Source: a virus
Reading direction: 5' to 3' (one strand)
IMG/VR virus record: IMGVR_UViG_3300028837_000796
Location: 1-20,381 of that record
Length of the DNA stretch: 20,381 nucleotides
Under the pieces are notes generated by a model. That model did no database searches. It was not told the origin of the DNA and saw only the letters and a program-made list of their open reading frames with translations. This document shows, one piece after another, positions 55 to 19,217 of this stretch (positions are counted from its first letter, which is position 1; every line of letters starts with the position of its first letter). The translations under genes and the position numbers were made by a program.

Positions 55-131
55 TACGCATGGCGCATGGCGCATAGGGCATGGCGTAAAACCCTCTACG
101 CTTTGCGCTTGGCTCTATGCGCTATGCGCTG
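55..131. repeat. 7-nt-type GCGCAT/TTTGCGC repeat tract
   Basis: Imperfect tandem units of the kind GGCGCAT and CTATGCG run through the gap between the gp36-like and gp35-like genes. The tract supplies the last codons of the gp35-like gene (AGC GCA TAG). Similar tracts occur at 2870-2930, 11666-11736, 15608-15646 and 17919-17950. Confidence 0.8.
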
Positions 132-4247: not shown

Positions 4248-5786
4248 TCATCCTTTCATCCCTTCGAATTGTTTTCTTAATTCATCCGGATACTTATCCA
4301 GGTCCGGGTGCCAGCGCTGCTTTGCCGGGTTGTGATCCCAGCCCTTGTCCGCGAGCAGGGGCCGGGCCGGCATCTTGTTGCCGGTGACCGGGTCAGTCGG
4401 CTCGATCAGGCCCCCGGTGGGATCCTCTTCTTCCACGGTAACGTCTTCATCCTTATGCACCGGGTTCACGCCGCACCGGCAATTATGCACTGTAGCCCCC
4501 TGGACTATGTACGTTTCGTCGGTTTCCACCGTCAGGTTGACAACAGTGCCGATGTATGGTATCCTTTGTATATCTTCTATCTCTCGGAGGATGCTGTGAG
4601 ACGCGGCCCAAGCCCTGAAATCATCCAACGAATCGAAACTATTGAGGGGGGCTCCATTATTGATGCCCTTACTTTGCGCTACGTCAAAGAAAAACTCTCC
4701 TATAGAATGCTTTGCGCTCGTTGGCGAATTGCTAACCATACCTTGATCAGGCTCATCAAGCATTTCGAGATCACACCCAGAAGAGGCAGCGATGCAATCA
4801 AGGCCCAATGGCTGCACGCCCCCGTCGAACGACGCAGAAATGCATCCGAGCGGCTGGCAAAACTTAGCCTGCAGCGCAAGAGAAAGGGGCTCCATTGGCA
4901 TCTCGGCAACACCAAGGATGTCGATGCGCGGACTAAGGCGGTGGCTGAGAGTCTCAAGATGTCCACTTCTGCCCGAAGACCGGAAGTCCGGCAAAAAAAC
5001 GCTATAGCACACAGGCTCGTCGTCCGCAGAAATCCTTTTGAACACGCTACAAGCAAAGCCCCTCCTACGCGGGCCGAAATGATTATAATCAATCATCTCA
5101 AAAACCTGGGCCTTGAGGTCATCCATAATCATATTGCATTTACATCCATCGGCCCGAAATGGTTGAACGCATTTATCCCCGCCCTGAACCTTGGAATCGG
5201 CTGCGAGGGATATGGTCGATTTCCCCTGGACTGGGACCGGCACGCAGCCATCTCCGCGCTCGGCATCCGTCATGTTTTTATTACCAATAAAAGAATTTAT
5301 CGAGACCAGTGGGAGGGTCTCGACAAATACATCTCCTGTATTCAGTTCGTCTGCCCTCACCCATCCGCGCATGGTCAAAATTCTGTGGTTTGGGGTCGCA
5401 TCAATCCGAGCGTTTTCAAGGACCAGCCTGACGAGTTGGCCGTCGAACATATTTCTGTGGACGAAGGACACTCGCTTCTCCTCACCACTACCCCCGATGA
5501 CCCGGTCCTCCGAGAGTATCGAACTTATTTTCTTCCATCCTGAACACGTCAGCACATTTGTCCACGGCGGGAAGCAGTTATATCCATTGGGCGGGTACCA
5601 AGTATCCCAGAAGGGATGATCCGCCGGGAAAATCTTGCCGTCCAGGGCCGCATGGCTGGGCCTGGTGTCTGCGTCATTTACCGCATCGTATTCCCAGTTT
5701 GGAAATGCCTCCTTTTGCTCTACCATTTGTTTGTACCGGCCCGTGTTGTAGGCGGTTTGCACGTTGGTGCGAAAGATGGTCTCCAT
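4248..5786 (-). CDS. F: Mu F-like (gp30) head morphogenesis protein interrupted by an intein; N-terminally short
   Basis: 512 residues: N-extein 1-70, intein 71-435, C-extein 436-512. The N-extein has the hallmarks of the Mu F domain: TIFRTNVQTAYNTGRY, YDAVNDADTRPSHAALDGK and FWDTWYPPNGYN. The C-extein opens CRCGV and contains the family's WDHNP. Ligated exteins would give a 147-residue protein, carrying essentially only the conserved domain. Mu F and most relatives are several hundred residues with a long N-terminal region, missing here. Only four codons (H-E-W-R) separate the portal stop from ATG 5786, in the same frame. The W-R before M-E-T-I-F-R looks like residual native F sequence, so the gene appears truncated by a repeat-associated event. 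F is a minor head protein; function requires splicing. Confidence 0.88.
   Translation of the reverse strand: METIFRTNVQTAYNTGRYKQMVEQKEAFPNWEYDAVNDADTRPSHAALDGKIFPADHPFWDTWYPPNGYNCFPPWTNVLTCSGWKKISSILSEDRVIGGSGEEKRVSFVHRNMFDGQLVRLVLENARIDATPNHRILTMRGWVRADELNTGDVFVETLPLVSINSFIGNKNMTDAERGDGCVPVPVQGKSTISLAADSKVQGGDKCVQPFRADGCKCNMIMDDLKAQVFEMIDYNHFGPRRRGFACSVFKRISADDEPVCYSVFLPDFRSSGRSGHLETLSHRLSPRIDILGVAEMPMEPLSLALQAKFCQPLGCISASFDGGVQPLGLDCIAASSGCDLEMLDEPDQGMVSNSPTSAKHSIGEFFFDVAQSKGINNGAPLNSFDSLDDFRAWAASHSILREIEDIQRIPYIGTVVNLTVETDETYIVQGATVHNCRCGVNPVHKDEDVTVEEEDPTGGLIEPTDPVTGNKMPARPLLADKGWDHNPAKQRWHPDLDKYPDELRKQFEGMKG
4537..4565 (+). promoter_or_regulatory. Candidate sigma70-type promoter for the antisense endonuclease gene
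   Basis: TTGACA at 4537-4542 (all six consensus positions), a 17-bp spacer, and TATCCT at 4560-4565 (four of six TATAAT positions). It points toward the plus-strand endonuclease gene, whose Shine-Dalgarno begins 20 bases after the -10. It lies inside the codons for intein block F (V-V-N-L), so part of the -35 could be coincidental to the conserved Val-Asn-Leu codons. Confidence 0.55.
4586..4590 (+). promoter_or_regulatory. Shine-Dalgarno GGAGG deciding the GTG start of the antisense endonuclease
   Basis: GGAGG ends 5 bases before GTG 4596-4598. The only ATG nearby (4591) is in another frame and meets a stop two codons later. Upstream in-frame ATGs (4308, 4455, 4485) lack a good site and would translate antisense splicing-domain codons. 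Confidence 0.65.
4596..5543 (+). CDS. Homing endonuclease, HTH + Vsr/EDxHD-like, encoded antisense inside the intein
   Basis: 315 residues from GTG 4596, the only plus-strand gene I accept. Residues about 24-64 (LRYVKEKLSYRMLCARWRI, then TLIRLIKHFEITPRRG) look like the helix-turn-helix modules that homing enzymes use to bind DNA. Residues about 85-135 are basic. Residues about 156-245 fit a Vsr/PD-(D/E)xK-type core of the EDxHD kind: PPTRAEMIIINHLKNLGLEV, a beta pair LNAFIPALNLGIGCEGYG, D-W-D-R-H, then an IRHVFITNKRIY strand. Compared with the expected pattern (xD-x-aIP... IE-x-DG), the copy has N191 and G202 in place of acids, so catalysis may be weakened. The last ~65 residues lie opposite intein blocks A-B and show no motif. 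Codon boundaries coincide exactly with those of the intein on the other strand. A chance antisense ORF is the alternative, disfavoured by the domain content, SD and promoter. Confidence 0.75.
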   Translation: MRRGPSPEIIQRIETIEGGSIIDALTLRYVKEKLSYRMLCARWRIANHTLIRLIKHFEITPRRGSDAIKAQWLHAPVERRRNASERLAKLSLQRKRKGLHWHLGNTKDVDARTKAVAESLKMSTSARRPEVRQKNAIAHRLVVRRNPFEHATSKAPPTRAEMIIINHLKNLGLEVIHNHIAFTSIGPKWLNAFIPALNLGIGCEGYGRFPLDWDRHAAISALGIRHVFITNKRIYRDQWEGLDKYISCIQFVCPHPSAHGQNSVVWGRINPSVFKDQPDELAVEHISVDEGHSLLLTTTPDDPVLREYRTYFLPS

Positions 5787-11388: not shown

Positions 11389-11429
11389 CGCCCTGCAGCG
11401 TACCACAGGGGGGCAACTCTGGCCGCTCG
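11389..11429. repeat. 41-bp perfect direct repeat, copy 1
   Basis: Identical to 11446-11486; the two are 16 bases apart. Each contains a near-palindrome CCCTGCAGCGTACCACAGGG. It lies between the Com-like stop and the terminator. Confidence 0.9.
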
Positions 11430-11445
11430 TTTAAACGCCTGCTAG

Positions 11446-11486
11446 CGCCCTGCAGCGTACCACAGGGGGGCAACTCTGGCCGCTCG
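11446..11486. repeat. 41-bp perfect direct repeat, copy 2
   Basis: Second copy of the 11389-11429 repeat. It is flanked by GCTAG on both sides (11441-11445 and 11486-11490), giving CTAGCG...CGCTAG as short outer inverted ends. Confidence 0.9.
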
Positions 11487-11490
11487 CTAG

Positions 11491-11715
11491 TTATATTGTA
11501 TAATTATTGAAACTTTTCTTTCTGAATGTCAAGCTTTTTTCTATATATACGAATTTTCTGCATCGCTTACACCACATCTTGACAATTGTGGTATTTTGCT
11601 GTTTTTCCCATTTACCCAAAAACTTCCCGCAAATCGGGCAGAGGATAGCATTAATTTCTTTCCCTTGCGCTCTGCGCTCTGCGCTTTGCGCTCTGCGCTT
11701 TTCGCTATGCGCCAT
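11491..11715 (-). CDS. Com-like four-cysteine zinc protein
   Basis: 74 residues. Residues about 25-58 contain CPICGKFLGKW, then MWCKRCRKFVYIE: two C-x-x-C pairs (C26, C29, C49, C52), the arrangement of Mu Com, a small zinc-binding RNA-interacting translational activator. The residues before the domain (MAHSEKRRAQSAERRAQGKE) are encoded entirely by a 7-nt repeat tract and show a 7-residue period, so the true domain may begin near residue 20 and the repeat has supplied the start codon. The ATG overlaps the GemA-like stop by 11 bases within that repeat. No mom homologue is visible downstream, so the regulated target is unknown. Low-GC codons distinguish it from the GC-richer neighbours. Confidence 0.68.
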   Translation of the reverse strand: MAHSEKRRAQSAERRAQGKEINAILCPICGKFLGKWEKQQNTTIVKMWCKRCRKFVYIEKSLTFRKKSFNNYTI

Positions 11716-11736
11716 GCGCTGTGCGCCTTGCGCTTA
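11666..11736. repeat. 7-nt-type repeat tract (TGCGCTC/TGCGCTT units)
   Basis: About ten imperfect heptamer units on the plus strand (TGCGCTC, TGCGCTT, TATGCGC). The tract encodes the GemA-like C-terminus with its TAG stop and also the Com-like start codon and N-terminal 18 or so residues. Confidence 0.9.
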
Positions 11737-12142
11737 TGGCTTTTATCGCTTCGATCACCTTGATGGCCTGGTCCGTGCTGAGAAAGTTCTCATGGTCGAC
11801 GCGGAAGCGTTTCTTCAAAAATCCCCGCAGGGCCGGCTTCTCCTTGCCCGGCTCGTAGTAGGTGCCGGCCAGGGTGTACCACAGGGCGTAGATTTTGGTA
11901 ACCAATTTCAATTTGGGATCGGTTATCCGTTGTCCGTTGTCCGTTGTTAAAGGATATTGAGTGCGAGACTTAAACCCTCGCTCCTCGAGATGGTGAACGA
12001 GCTTGCACCAGTCCTGATATTTCATTTTCGTCAGCGAGCGGAAACCGGTAAACTCCTCCTGGATCAGATGCCGGTCATCCTCGGTGATCCCCAGCTCTTT
12101 GCATGCCACATGCACTAGCGCGATTTGTTTACGGGTTAACAT
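11705..12142 (-). CDS. gemA: GemA / Mu gp16-like regulatory protein (DUF1018)
   Basis: 145 residues. The opening MLTRKQIALVHVACKELGIT, then DDRHLIQEEFTGFRSLTKM and the C-terminal GFLKKRFRVDHENFLSTDQA and IKVIEAIKAI segments match the GemA/DUF1018 family that follows the early region of Mu-like phages. In Mu, GemA modulates host gene expression. Two parts are unusual. Residues about 62-75 (QYPLTTDNGQRITD) are encoded by a dispersed repeat (CCGTTGT units, 11921-11957) inserted in frame, and the last nine residues (ARRTAHGA and neighbours) come from a heptamer tract. AATTGA repeat DNA replaces the expected Shine-Dalgarno upstream. Confidence 0.85.
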   Translation of the reverse strand: MLTRKQIALVHVACKELGITEDDRHLIQEEFTGFRSLTKMKYQDWCKLVHHLEERGFKSRTQYPLTTDNGQRITDPKLKLVTKIYALWYTLAGTYYEPGKEKPALRGFLKKRFRVDHENFLSTDQAIKVIEAIKAISARRTAHGA

Positions 12143-12143
12143 A

Positions 12144-12200
12144 TGTCAATTGAAACTTGATAATTATAAATTGAAAATTGATAATTATAAACTGACAATT
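12144..12200. repeat. AT-rich tandem repeat (TTGATAATTATAAA units)
   Basis: Three degenerate units of TTGA(A/T)AATTATAAA and AATTGAAA fill the space between the upstream gene's stop and the GemA-like ATG. No Shine-Dalgarno for GemA is visible. Confidence 0.75.
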
Positions 12201-12935: not shown

Positions 12936-12963
12936 ATTCGTGTTATTAGTGTAAATTCGTGGC
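12936..12963. repeat. 28-bp dispersed CACGAAT repeat (copy 2)
   Basis: Differs from 5792-5819 at one position. Additional partial units (CACGAAT at 12897-12912) extend it leftwards. It fills the gap between the winged-helix gene and the CPHC gene, whose stop codon overlaps its last base. Confidence 0.85.
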
Positions 12964-13490
12964 TAACCTTCCTTTCCGATTTTATCCAAAAGACTCTTGA
13001 TTCCATGCCGGGCCTTATAGTCGGCAACGGTGCTCTCGTTCTCGTTCGCTTTGCGCTCCCCGCCAGAAGTACGGCGGGCAAGTTCTCTTGCCTGCTCCTC
13101 CTTTGCGGTGAGGCCCTCGGCGCTGACCCGCGCGGCGGATTTCTTGAGCATCACCTTCAGGTAGTTATGATTCTTGAAACCCCATTTGCCGACATTGCAG
13201 ATTTCGGTGATCGCTCCCAGGATATCAGGCCAATTCGTGCGATATGTTTTGCCTTGATAGCGGAACTCGCAGGTATCGAAAAGCCGGGACAAATCTTTAA
13301 AGATCCGGACTCGCCTGGTTAATTTGACACCGCCATATTCAGACTGTCTGAAACAATCGGAATATTCATATATGATCCGCCACGACCTGCCGAATTTTGC
13401 CGCAATGTCATTAGCTTCCTGATGTTCCAGTTCTGTGACAGCCTGTTCGAATTCAATCGAACTTCCGCAATGGGGGCAGATTAGTTTCAT
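12963..13490 (-). CDS. Phage protein with N-terminal CPHC zinc-knuckle, function unknown
   Basis: 175 residues. It starts MKLICPHCGSSIEFEQAV, a single C-x-x-C knuckle as in half a zinc ribbon. Later blocks ('YSDCFRQSEYG', 'RTNWPDILGAITEICNVGKW', 'GFKNHNYLKVMLKKSA') have the look of a phage family with a helical DNA-handling core. The C-terminal tail (about 125-175) is charged, and residues about 138-145 (RRTSGGER) are encoded by a REP-like GGCGGG palindrome inserted in frame. Upstream of the ATG lies an AATTGA repeat and only a weak GAGAG ribosome-binding site. A replication or regulatory role is inferred from position only. Confidence 0.72.
   Translation of the reverse strand: MKLICPHCGSSIEFEQAVTELEHQEANDIAAKFGRSWRIIYEYSDCFRQSEYGGVKLTRRVRIFKDLSRLFDTCEFRYQGKTYRTNWPDILGAITEICNVGKWGFKNHNYLKVMLKKSAARVSAEGLTAKEEQARELARRTSGGERKANENESTVADYKARHGIKSLLDKIGKEG
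13059..13078. repeat. REP-like CCCGCC...GGCGGG palindrome inside a gene
   Basis: Same architecture as 9636-9655 (also followed by GCAAG), here within the coding region of the CPHC protein without breaking its frame. Confidence 0.75.
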
Positions 13491-13511
13491 TTTCGATTTC
13501 TCTCGCCACCT

Positions 13512-13546
13512 TCAATTGAAAATTTTCAATTGTCAATTTTCAATTG
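13512..13546. repeat. AATTGA-type palindromic repeat
   Basis: TCAATTGAAAATTTTCAATT followed by GTCAATTTTCAATTG; self-complementary and related to 4012-4031 and 11346-11374. It lies between the CPHC gene and the small membrane genes. Confidence 0.75.
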
Positions 13547-13563
13547 TTTGTGGCAATCCATAA

Positions 13564-15607: not shown

Positions 15608-15646
15608 CTCTGCCCTATGCGCTCTGCGCTCTGCGCTTTGCGCTTA
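15608..15646. repeat. 7-nt-type repeat tract after MuB
   Basis: Heptamer units TATGCGC, TCTGCGC, TTTGCGC directly after the MuB-like stop and before the ASCH-like start. Confidence 0.85.
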
Positions 15647-16666: not shown

Positions 16667-17158
16667 CTATGTAATTAATCTGTACACTTTTGGCTGTAAG
16701 TTTTTCTTTAGATATAATGGGTGCCTCGGTGCTCCGGTTTTGGTCAGAGATAAACAATAGGGCTCTGTTAAAAAATTCGTCACATCAGTGTCTCGGCACA
16801 TATAGTTACCATGAGCCCCCCATGCCACAATCGTAAGCGTAGACTTTGCACTTGCACATCGAAGGTGAAAATCGTTGTCTGGACCTACGGGATCATTAAC
16901 CTTATAAAGGCTTTTCGGGTCTGTTGATCGGTACGCAAATAGATTCAACATAATCAAGCCACCATAACCCCAATTACGTGCATAATTAATACACCGCCTG
17001 ATAGTTGGATCATCAATGGTTTCATCGGCAGTAGATGGATTCAATCCGACAAATGCCACATATCCATTAGCTTGATTCCAGAAACGCCATAACGAGTATC
17101 GATAAATCCTATCTGGTGAAAATTCGGCGCCCTGTTCTATAAAAAGAGAGCTTTGCAT
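16667..17158 (-). CDS. DUF1643-family protein between MuA and MuB
   Basis: 163 residues. Family features: YRYSLWRFWNQANGYVAFVG, NPSTADETIDDPTIRRC (the N-P-S-x-A-D and D-x-T-x-R-R motif), WGYGGLIMLNLFAYRSTDPK and IVAWGAHGNY. These define DUF1643, common in phages and mobile islands with unproven biochemical function. It is lower in GC than the flanking transposition genes and splits the usual A-B gene pair, which suggests a later insertion of cargo. TAA-rich flanks give only weak ribosome-binding sites. Length and motifs look intact. Confidence 0.87.
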   Translation of the reverse strand: MQSSLFIEQGAEFSPDRIYRYSLWRFWNQANGYVAFVGLNPSTADETIDDPTIRRCINYARNWGYGGLIMLNLFAYRSTDPKSLYKVNDPVGPDNDFHLRCASAKSTLTIVAWGAHGNYMCRDTDVTNFLTEPYCLSLTKTGAPRHPLYLKKNLQPKVYRLIT

Positions 17159-17177: not shown

Positions 17178-19217
17178 TCACTCCTTAATCCCCGGCATGT
17201 TCAGTTTGAAGGGCCGGACGTATGTTTCTTTCTTTCGCTTTCGCTCCTCGAGCCGGCGCCGGGTCATCTCGTTGAATTGTTCGCGGAAATTGAATGGCTC
17301 CTGTTCGGCCTGCCTTGAGCCTGTCGAAAGGTCGATTTCGTCCTGGGTATGATCGAGCGGGGTCCGTAATACTCTGAGCACTTTCGCCGGTTTGTCCTCA
17401 TGCTCCCCGCTGGGCTCCTGTTTCTGGTAGCCGAACTCCACCTGCACCAGGTTCTCTGCGGCCTCGCGCTGGGCCTTGATGGCCCGGAGCTTTTTCTTCT
17501 CGATCTTTTTAACTTCGTGATAGGCGTCTTCATCATCCCAGGCCGTGCGGTGGGTGCGTTCGGCCGTGCAGATGAATTCGTTCTGCTCCGTATATATATA
17601 AAGGATAGAGACATCGGCCGGATCATATCTGAAAACCACAAATTTCCCCTGGTGATCCATAACCGGTGAGCTCCGGTACCGCTCGCCGAATGCGGTGATC
17701 CCGAACCGGCCGACCTTCACACGCTTTGATTTCATCATGAGCAGCCTGAGCGAGTTGGGCGATACCCTGCGCTGGGCGTGCGTCTCGAAATATTCATTCC
17801 ACACCTGGTTGGGCGTTCTGCCATTCATGGCATGGCCCTGGTGTTCGTGATCCTGGTTATAATTCTCAATATGATTCTCCAGGCATCCAACAAACTCATC
17901 CCACTCCAAAATATAATTCGCTTTGCCCTTTGCGCTTTGCGCTATGCGCCCATCCACTCCCTCCGGGCGGTTTATGATGTTATTTCCCCGGTAGGTGGGA
18001 AAGGCCTTTTGAAAATTCTGCTCCTGGGTCCAGAACCATCGCTCGATATTTTTTGCCTGGGCATTGGCCGGTATACAGAAATGCGGTTCGATGCTTAAGA
18101 GTTTGTAAATGCCGATGAGTTCGTTTTCCTGTACCTTAAAGCGGAAGCGTTTGGTCTGACCCCCGGTGAAATGCTTGGCCGAAAAATCCCGGCCATTATC
18201 GATGACAATATGCTGGGGGGCGCCGTATCGCTCGATGCTGTATTTCAGAGAGAGGTTGATGGTGTTGCTTGAAGGGGTATCTGCCAGGACCCAGCCCAGG
18301 ATCTTACGGGTGCGCATATCCTTCCAGGCCGTGAGCCAGGGAAAGATAGTGCGTCCGGACGGATGCTTTACCGCCACATTTATTTGCTCATGATCGGAAA
18401 CGTAGAGTTCGCCTGGATCCATTTGCTCGTAATCGCGGAGCACGGAAGGAAGATAATGTTCTTGCCAGTATCGTTTGCCCTTGCGGTAGCGATCGCGTGT
18501 TTCCTGGGGGATGCGCTGGACATACCGGCGCATGGTGACAACGGAGGGCAGGTTCCATCCGCGCTTTTTCGCTTCGGTTTTTAGCTGCTGGATACACCAC
18601 GATGCAGTGGGCTGGTTGATGTTGCAATATTTCTGAAAGAGATATGCCTGGGCTTCCTCCGGCCAGGCCTTGAATGAATTGCTGCTGCCGAATTGATTGA
18701 TTAATCCTTCGATGCCTGAATTGCGGAATTGTGAGATCTTCCGGAAGAGGGTCTTATGGCTGAAGGTGCGATCCTGGGGATGGTCGATGCGCCAGAGCCG
18801 CACGAAATCCTGCGCCGCCTGGCAGCGCTTGCCGATGGTTTTGGCATGCTCTTCGAATGCGGCGATGATGGTGAGCCACCGGAGCGCCTCCAGTTTTTTG
18901 TATTCCGGCTGCCGGTCGAAGCCATCGAAGGCTGCCTCGGGGATCCCCACCTGTTCGGAATCCACCTTCCTGGCCTCGACCGAACGAAAAAATCGCGCCC
19001 TCGCCTCGGTGCTGAGACACGAGAGCGCGATCTCTAATTTTTTGCCGCCGCGACCGCCGCCTTTTCCGGATTTTACGGTTCTGATGTATTTATAGGATTT
19101 AGCAGCAATTCGGTTCCGAATTGCCCTTTCTGTTACATTTTCGAGTTCCGCCACCCCTTTTTGGTCTATCCAGATCTCATCCATACTCAACCGCCCGAAT
19201 TGATTACATAATTTCAA
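17178..19217 (-). CDS. A: MuA-like DDE transposase
   Basis: 679 residues. The N-terminal Mu-type DNA-binding winged helix is at about 14-70 (IWIDQKGVAELENVTERAIR). Further end-binding helices span about 105-235. The RNase H-like DDE core contains D275 (LYVSDHEQIN), D340 (HIVIDNGRDF) and E392 (NAQAKNIERWF), nearly the spacing of Mu transposase D269/D336/E392. A beta-barrel follows (about 495-560), then a charged C-terminal tail where MuB and ClpX contacts occur in Mu. I chose TTG 19217 because AGGGGA sits about 7 bases upstream and the codon overlaps a preceding small ORF stop (TTGA); ATG 19184 is the alternative. An in-frame heptamer repeat encodes residues about 423-433. It would catalyse replicative transposition of the phage. 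Confidence 0.94.
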   Translation of the reverse strand: MKLCNQFGRLSMDEIWIDQKGVAELENVTERAIRNRIAAKSYKYIRTVKSGKGGGRGGKKLEIALSCLSTEARARFFRSVEARKVDSEQVGIPEAAFDGFDRQPEYKKLEALRWLTIIAAFEEHAKTIGKRCQAAQDFVRLWRIDHPQDRTFSHKTLFRKISQFRNSGIEGLINQFGSSNSFKAWPEEAQAYLFQKYCNINQPTASWCIQQLKTEAKKRGWNLPSVVTMRRYVQRIPQETRDRYRKGKRYWQEHYLPSVLRDYEQMDPGELYVSDHEQINVAVKHPSGRTIFPWLTAWKDMRTRKILGWVLADTPSSNTINLSLKYSIERYGAPQHIVIDNGRDFSAKHFTGGQTKRFRFKVQENELIGIYKLLSIEPHFCIPANAQAKNIERWFWTQEQNFQKAFPTYRGNNIINRPEGVDGRIAQSAKGKANYILEWDEFVGCLENHIENYNQDHEHQGHAMNGRTPNQVWNEYFETHAQRRVSPNSLRLLMMKSKRVKVGRFGITAFGERYRSSPVMDHQGKFVVFRYDPADVSILYIYTEQNEFICTAERTHRTAWDDEDAYHEVKKIEKKKLRAIKAQREAAENLVQVEFGYQKQEPSGEHEDKPAKVLRVLRTPLDHTQDEIDLSTGSRQAEQEPFNFREQFNEMTRRRLEERKRKKETYVRPFKLNMPGIKE
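17919..17950. repeat. 7-nt-type repeat tract inside the MuA-like gene
   Basis: Heptamer-like units (TTTGCCC, TTTGCGC, TATGCGC) translated in frame as GRIAQSAKGKA between the DDE core and the downstream helical segment. Confidence 0.8.

Follow-up and report, generated by a model that had tools for sequence, protein, structure and literature searches.

Long simple sequence repeats were surveyed in 2007, in a study said to be the work of Mrazek. In the passages of later papers that cite this survey, heptanucleotides are said to outnumber the other long-repeat classes in most genomes, contact of the polymerase with 7 nt is mentioned as a proposal, and no locus-level or phage case appears (PMC4679880; PMC4692102). 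Slippage of the polymerase on a 7-nt contact is a published proposal, as reported in the introduction of MacGregor (2015, PMC4679880). According to the passages of that paper on TAACTGA, direct repeats of this heptamer occur in marine Beggiatoaceae, some cyanobacteria, and Bacteroidetes. Like the arrays analyzed here, these are 7-bp tandem arrays scattered over the genome and mostly intergenic, some of them lying over the stop of an upstream ORF or over protein ends, and a 7-residue peptide is discussed there (PMC4679880). They differ in having one dominant unit, whereas the many units found here share only their period. The text of PMC4679880 contains no word beginning with 'phage', a count confined to words with that beginning, 'bacteriophage'-type words being outside its scope.

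Tandem heptamers and octamers also constitute the paired multicopy sites of Geobacter metallireducens (genome paper 2009, PMC2700814). As set out in the passages on these sites, the tandem repeats lie mostly in strand-switching pairs with a variable gap, a further family of four heptamers occurs between and within genes, and the sites, which have few units, were read as putative binding sites of global regulators or as RNA elements (PMC2700814). GGGNATC-type heptamer arrays in Xanthomonas and Nostoc are, in the relevant part of Rehm (2015, PMC4692102), dispersed and over-represented in non-coding DNA, as is the family of the gemA-com array; they differ from it in their G-quadruplex-forming unit, a preference for four copies, and their location in bacterial chromosomes. 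No case from a phage gemA or com gene was found in open-licence PMC papers. Rickettsia palindromic elements, which are longer than 7-bp tandem arrays and, unlike these, palindromic, enter genes and end up as protein sequence at sites that tolerate them. Heptamer arrays located at the ends of ORFs have already been published, and the gemA-com array seems to be a well-positioned example of a repeat type already known, not a novel device, since similar repeats crowd some bacterial genomes.

The array at the gemA-com junction

The window, which is the whole 20,381-bp stretch analyzed, is an IMG/VR virus record of a Mu-like phage with recognizable genes for MuA, a MuB-like ATPase, GemA, terminase, portal, protease, and capsid. 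The gemA gene (11705..12142, minus strand) encodes a 145-aa protein of the Mu GemA family (PF06252, E 1.5e-18; phrog_286, E 9.2e-25), which scored 68.3 bits on the Pfam GemA model (cut-off 27). A 74-aa zinc-ribbon protein is encoded at 11491..11715 (minus strand). Its four Cys are invariant in all nine aligned Com-like proteins, the window protein included, and its C-x2-C...C-x2-C core aligned with Mu Com (hhalign probability 96, E 4.9e-9, 31 columns). Zn_ribbon_19 matched below its cut-off, and the Pfam Com model PF10122 was not reported for this protein at E 0.001; on the same model, the homologue in contig L003 reached 18.5 bits against 22.9. The protein was termed Com-like because it aligned with Mu Com but did not reach the Pfam Com model. 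Searches of viral contigs for relatives of this protein, and of phage records for distant DNA matches, found none.

Other features of the window were recorded alongside these genes. A Mu F-like head protein (4248-5786, minus strand) is split by an intein-like domain (PF14890, E 1.5e-9), with junctions read by eye, and marked here by slashes, as NGYN/CFPPWTNVLTCSG...TYIVQGATVHN/CRCGVNP. The interval separating MuA from the MuB-like gene codes for a DUF1643 protein (E 3.3e-46; 16667-17158, minus strand). Downstream of the com-like gene, inspection by eye revealed two copies of a ~40-bp sequence (gagcggccagagttgcccccctgtggtacgctgcagggcg; 11400-11490, minus strand), followed by a GCGCCC...GGGCGC hairpin, whose loop is a CAATTGA-type array, and a T run.

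The junction of gemA and the com-like gene is spanned by a heptamer array of 9.9 copies, with AGCGCAN units and GGCGCA variants (11666..11734, minus strand). TRF called this array at period 7 (80% matches, score 75) and also at period 21 (11665-11734, score 91). On the minus strand, the units read AGCGCAA GGCGCAC AGCGCAT GGCGCAT AGCGAAA AGCGCAG AGCGCAA AGCGCAG AGCGCAG AGCGCA, and self-identity was 50/62 at lag 7, 38/48 at lag 21, and 7/66 at lag 3. A first-pass annotation of this DNA had placed the tract correctly, apart from a range that ran 2 nt beyond the array.

As that annotation had claimed, the repeat supplies the gemA stop codon, a TAG at a GCGCATAG unit junction (11705..11707, minus strand), and the likely start of the com-like gene, a putative ATG at a GCGCATGG unit junction (11713..11715, minus strand). 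The two genes share 11 nt. The last conserved motif of GemA is IxxR, here ISAR; the array starts inside this motif and supplies the terminal SARRTAHGA of the protein as well as the stop (...SARRTAHGA*). Within the array, the Com-like frame opens with MAHSEKRRAQSAERRAQGKEINAILCPICG / MAHSEKRRAQSAERRAQ, and the first 16-17 residues of the Com-like protein are array-encoded; the GemA ending and this opening peptide read as the annotation had given them. In any heptamer array, three 7-nt units yield one 7-residue unit.

No ATG, GTG, or TTG other than the array ATG was present in the Com frame upstream of the zinc ribbon, so that the array ATG is the likely com start. By eye, it is not preceded by a good Shine-Dalgarno sequence, only by AAGG 10 nt upstream. 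Translation of the Com-like protein would, to judge from these frames, start at the array ATG. A single repeat encodes the tail of GemA and, most likely, the head of the Com-like protein. The first Cys is at position 26 in the window protein vs ~6-9 in L011, L003, and Mu Com (starts inferred). Long N-termini without this repeat were found in the Com-like proteins of L012, L006, L036, L009, and L010 (starts chosen by the author), so an N-terminal extension alone is not unusual. The broader proposal that the repeat supplies protein ends was supported by the array-encoded GemA tail, by the late first Cys relative to L011, L003, and Mu Com, and by a bacterial parallel (gene 1, below).

Period-7 arrays were not expected by chance. 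At a threshold of TRF score 40 and 2.5 copies, they occurred in 0/200 windows simulated with an order-1 Markov model and 0/200 with an order-3 model, whereas the real window has six; the top simulated score for any period up to 15 was 53 (order-1) and 48 (order-3). At score 30, order-3 simulations (n = 200) gave on average 0.085 period-7 arrays per window and never more than 2, whereas the real window has 7. Four of the six score-40 arrays are of the GCGCA type, one is GGACAAC, and one is of the TCAATTG type. GCGCA-type arrays recur at 57-130, 11666-11734, 15608-15644, and 17919-17949. According to TRF, the first of these regions (57..130, no strand assigned) holds two GCGCATR-type arrays, inverted by eye around a 12-bp spacer; a GCGCAGA-type array separates the MuB-like gene from the start of the next ORF (15608..15644, minus strand), and a GCGCAAA-type array lies in the MuA linker (17919..17949, minus strand). 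Further TRF arrays comprise a second heptamer array near the junction (GGACAAC; 11922..11947, minus strand), in the gemA linker, an array of 7/14/21-bp period (CAATTGA/AATTGAA type; 12148..12200, no strand assigned) that ends 5 nt upstream of the gemA ATG, and a TCAATTG-type array upstream of ORF 12963-13490 (13511..13547, no strand assigned). With head-to-tail 7-bp units beyond chance and a recurring unit type, the junction tract fits the dispersed heptanucleotide tandem repeats. It is a single array, not a Geobacter-type inverted pair; the arrays at 57-130 do pair in that way (by eye).

Heptamer arrays in related phages

TRF was applied to 21 GemA homologues including the window, ten closer and eleven more distant. 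Outside this set were L008, treated as a copy of L007 because the two agree in identity and length, and L012, with a partial gemA; L242 was left out because it is cut by its contig end. The nearest GemA relatives are ~60% identical to window GemA, and there is thus no before-and-after pair for the gemA-com junction. Period-7 arrays were present in the GemA linker, between the two conserved halves of the protein, in 5/21 homologues, all among the ten closer; the units are GGACAAC in the window, AACTCGC in L005, and of the GGTTCA type in L002, L004, and L006. In place of period 7, the linker carries a period-8 (CCAACCGG) array in L009 (4180-4217) and a period-9 (GGGAAAAGC) array in L010 (4176-4210). 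A period-7 array lies over the gemA stop in 2/21, namely the window and L010, whose gemA TGA (4586-4588) is within a 2.6-copy GAAGACT array. In the eleven more distant homologues, TRF detected no heptamer array in or just after gemA, except for a GC-rich 14-bp row in L038.

The com gene directly follows gemA in the window and in L003, L011, and L012. The com gene of L003 has a TTG start that overlaps the stop of gemA, and that of L012 begins ~35 nt inside gemA; neither junction has a TRF array, and two GATCGGA-like heptamer copies were seen by eye in L012. In L011, com starts ~15 nt past the gemA stop, again with no TRF array at the junction. In Mu, gemA and mor overlap by 4 nt. The first-pass annotation had held that the repeat created the translational overlap; this was rejected, as the genes of L003 and L012 overlap in the absence of a TRF array.

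The MuA linker has an array in the window, none in L159, and a different repeat in L160. Insertion of a whole array in MuA was not obvious, because the region is just 2 residues longer in the window than in L159. By eye, a CCTTCGAC...CTCAGGGC-type repeat was observed in L003, L006, and L160, where it is translated into RSGQ, RRAQG, and RQAQG peptides in linkers and ends of GemA and MuA. The heptamer motif GCGCARA occurred in exact form at 14 viral loci on 13 contigs; only one of these loci showed a relative in a comparison with 12 window proteins, which indicated that the repeat is not confined to a single phage lineage.

Array turnover in a repeat-rich bacterial genus

GCGCARA occurred in 16/297 genomes of the phylum holding Desulfobacteraceae bacterium UBA5616, vs one match in all for the reversed control; weaker hits in the phylum from a separate search were left out of the examination. 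Most matches were in genomes G151 (90, overlapping), G027 (34), and G208 (8). All nine genomes of the genus of G151 carry the motif, with 3 to 90 matches each (control 0). Arrays were counted with TRF, since counting exact runs of 12 matches proved too stringent where units are imperfect. In pieces of four genomes of the genus (G151, G690, G691, and G692, the pieces of the last three evenly spaced), 173 of 236 short-period arrays (period ≤15) were heptamers; 8/12 G151 pieces had been picked for the motif, and the other four held 3.16 arrays per 10 kb vs 3.96 for all. The 173 heptamer arrays lay outside ORF calls (141), across an ORF end (17), or inside an ORF (15), with ~80% of the DNA called coding by crude, longest-ORF gene calls.

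Based on the same crude calls and gaps of at least 20 bp, 22 arrays lay in convergent gaps, 22 in divergent gaps, and 94 in tandem gaps, vs 20.4, 31.4, and 86.2 expected by length. A clear preference for one gap type was dropped as an explanation, these counts being near the gap-length expectation. In tandem gaps, arrays leaned mildly to the upstream stop (quintiles 24, 24, 18, 17, 11). Placement near the gap-length prediction is more in keeping with tolerance of the arrays than with a role for them.

Units recur within and between the four genomes above the random-unit expectation, which was based on a rough figure of ~1170 heptamer classes. TCAATTG-type units of the window were absent from the sampled unit vocabulary of the genus. 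Neighboring arrays at most 150 bp apart (n = 109 pairs; G151, G690, G691, G692; L119-L130, L170-L209) were inverted in 35, direct in 0, and neither in 74 pairs; among random array pairs, 6-9% were inverted and 5-8% direct. Since inverted copies occur in 35/109 pairs, many neighboring arrays could form long imperfect hairpins. Arrays of different unit were nested in some cases (L123, by eye).

Two genes were compared between species of the genus; paralogues (48-52% for gene 1, 38% for gene 2) were set aside. In G151, the gene 1 stop falls within a CGCATAG array (GCGCATAG array); in G693, the array around it is AGGTGTC, and no period-7 TRF row lies near it in G689, G691, G694, and G696. With a different array in two species and none in four, array-made protein ends turn over. 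The gene 1 case is an event of the gemA-com type, in which sister species differ in the unit and in whether an array is there at all. Only in G690 does an array, of CAGAGGA units, encode the terminal peptide of gene 2. Arrays lie 29 nt (G694, CAGCAGG) and 51 nt (G151, TTACCGT) past its first stop base; a 14-bp row of two copies is all that G693 shows, and TRF called no row in G692, G689, and G696, with heptamer-like tracts visible by eye in G692 and G696. This distribution supports the view that one species gained an array-made end.

The phage host was sought with MuA. Window MuA had no match at E 1e-30 in 12 genomes of the family of G151 and 3 of the order of G027, an empty answer that is uninformative, and a further MuA search yielded one weak match in 16 (27% identity). 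Terminase relatives with 55-59% identity were detected in 6/389 searched genomes of the class; among the surrounding pieces, one had one period-7 array and five had none. No period-7 array was found in pieces of the prophage relatives G651, G443, G496, and G478 (20 kb each) and G596 (10 kb), in pieces of 40, 40, 40, and 37 kb from four other hosts (two of them G651 and G496), or in Mu. The prophage region G001ph has 2 arrays in 20 kb and its own host none in 37 kb; G488ph has one in 17 kb and its own host none in 40 kb. These two cases argue against a strict rule that arrays follow the host.

Origin and meaning of the junction array

A dispersed heptamer array probably either grew in place at the gemA-com junction of the Mu-like phage or was copied there, and rewrote the GemA tail and the Com head. 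The tract would be a member of the family of dispersed 7-bp arrays that crowd certain bacterial genomes and are present in other phages. The junction would tolerate a (GCGCANN)n array because the last GemA residues and the Com residues before the zinc ribbon are unconserved. The GCGCATAG and GCGCATGG variants happen to carry TAG and ATG, so that the array encodes the end of GemA with its stop and would also provide the start of Com and a Com head with a 7-residue period. The phage array may derive from the bacterial process or from the host of the phage, which was not found, and the outcome would be close to neutral.

Translational control was judged unlikely. In this scenario, a GCGC hairpin holds the com AUG and is opened by ribosomes finishing gemA, thereby coupling the two genes, for which the geometry of the overlap is suitable. 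A 91-nt RNA was predicted to fold at -34.7 kcal/mol (z -4.44; 0/200 dinucleotide shuffles as stable), with the com AUG in an internal loop between GCGC stems. However, this stability is mostly a by-product of any GCGC-containing heptamer array: the 69-nt array alone was only slightly more stable than unit-permuted arrays (permuted mean -32.4 vs -33.5; 8/500 as stable). The slight excess leaves room for selection on structure, but the RNA hairpin was set aside as evidence of function, since the z of -4.44 shrinks to this small excess under unit permutation. Further points against coupling are the lack of a TRF array at the junctions of L003, L011, and L012, the other contigs with com next to gemA, and the near gap-length placement of arrays in the repeat-rich genus.

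Heptamer-driven phase variation of a surface protein is said to occur in another bacterium. Here, gain or loss of 7-bp units would shift gemA off its stop and move or remove the com start, and a single unit shifts the frame. We nevertheless regard phase variation as very unlikely at this locus: with 80% matches the array is imperfect, which should slow slippage; all three frames of the minus strand give similar repeating peptides, so that many shifts would change little inside the array; and no variant of the gemA-com locus was seen. It is highly improbable that the N-terminal 7-residue-period peptide of the Com-like protein is a selected, functional helix. AlphaFold2 predicted a helix at residues 3-17, but with a pLDDT of ~55-62 in this block (overall 65), the peptide sequence is dictated by the DNA repeat, and the repeat peptide is absent from the eight other aligned Com-like proteins.

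Rather doubtfully, an active process in these lineages might repeatedly write 7-nt-period arrays with a shared unit vocabulary, in many cases as inverted pairs, at the same permissive sites of chromosomes and phages, gene ends and protein linkers among them. Termini would then be continually rewritten, with the period kept and the unit replaced, and the gemA-com tract would be a phage product of this process.

At the gemA-com junction, the end of one protein and, most likely, the beginning of its neighbor can be read directly from one repeat. Alongside the comparison of sister species, this case shows protein ends being rewritten by heptamer arrays within a bacterial genus, and it makes an old puzzle testable: why period 7 is favored, and how different units reach the same gene ends.
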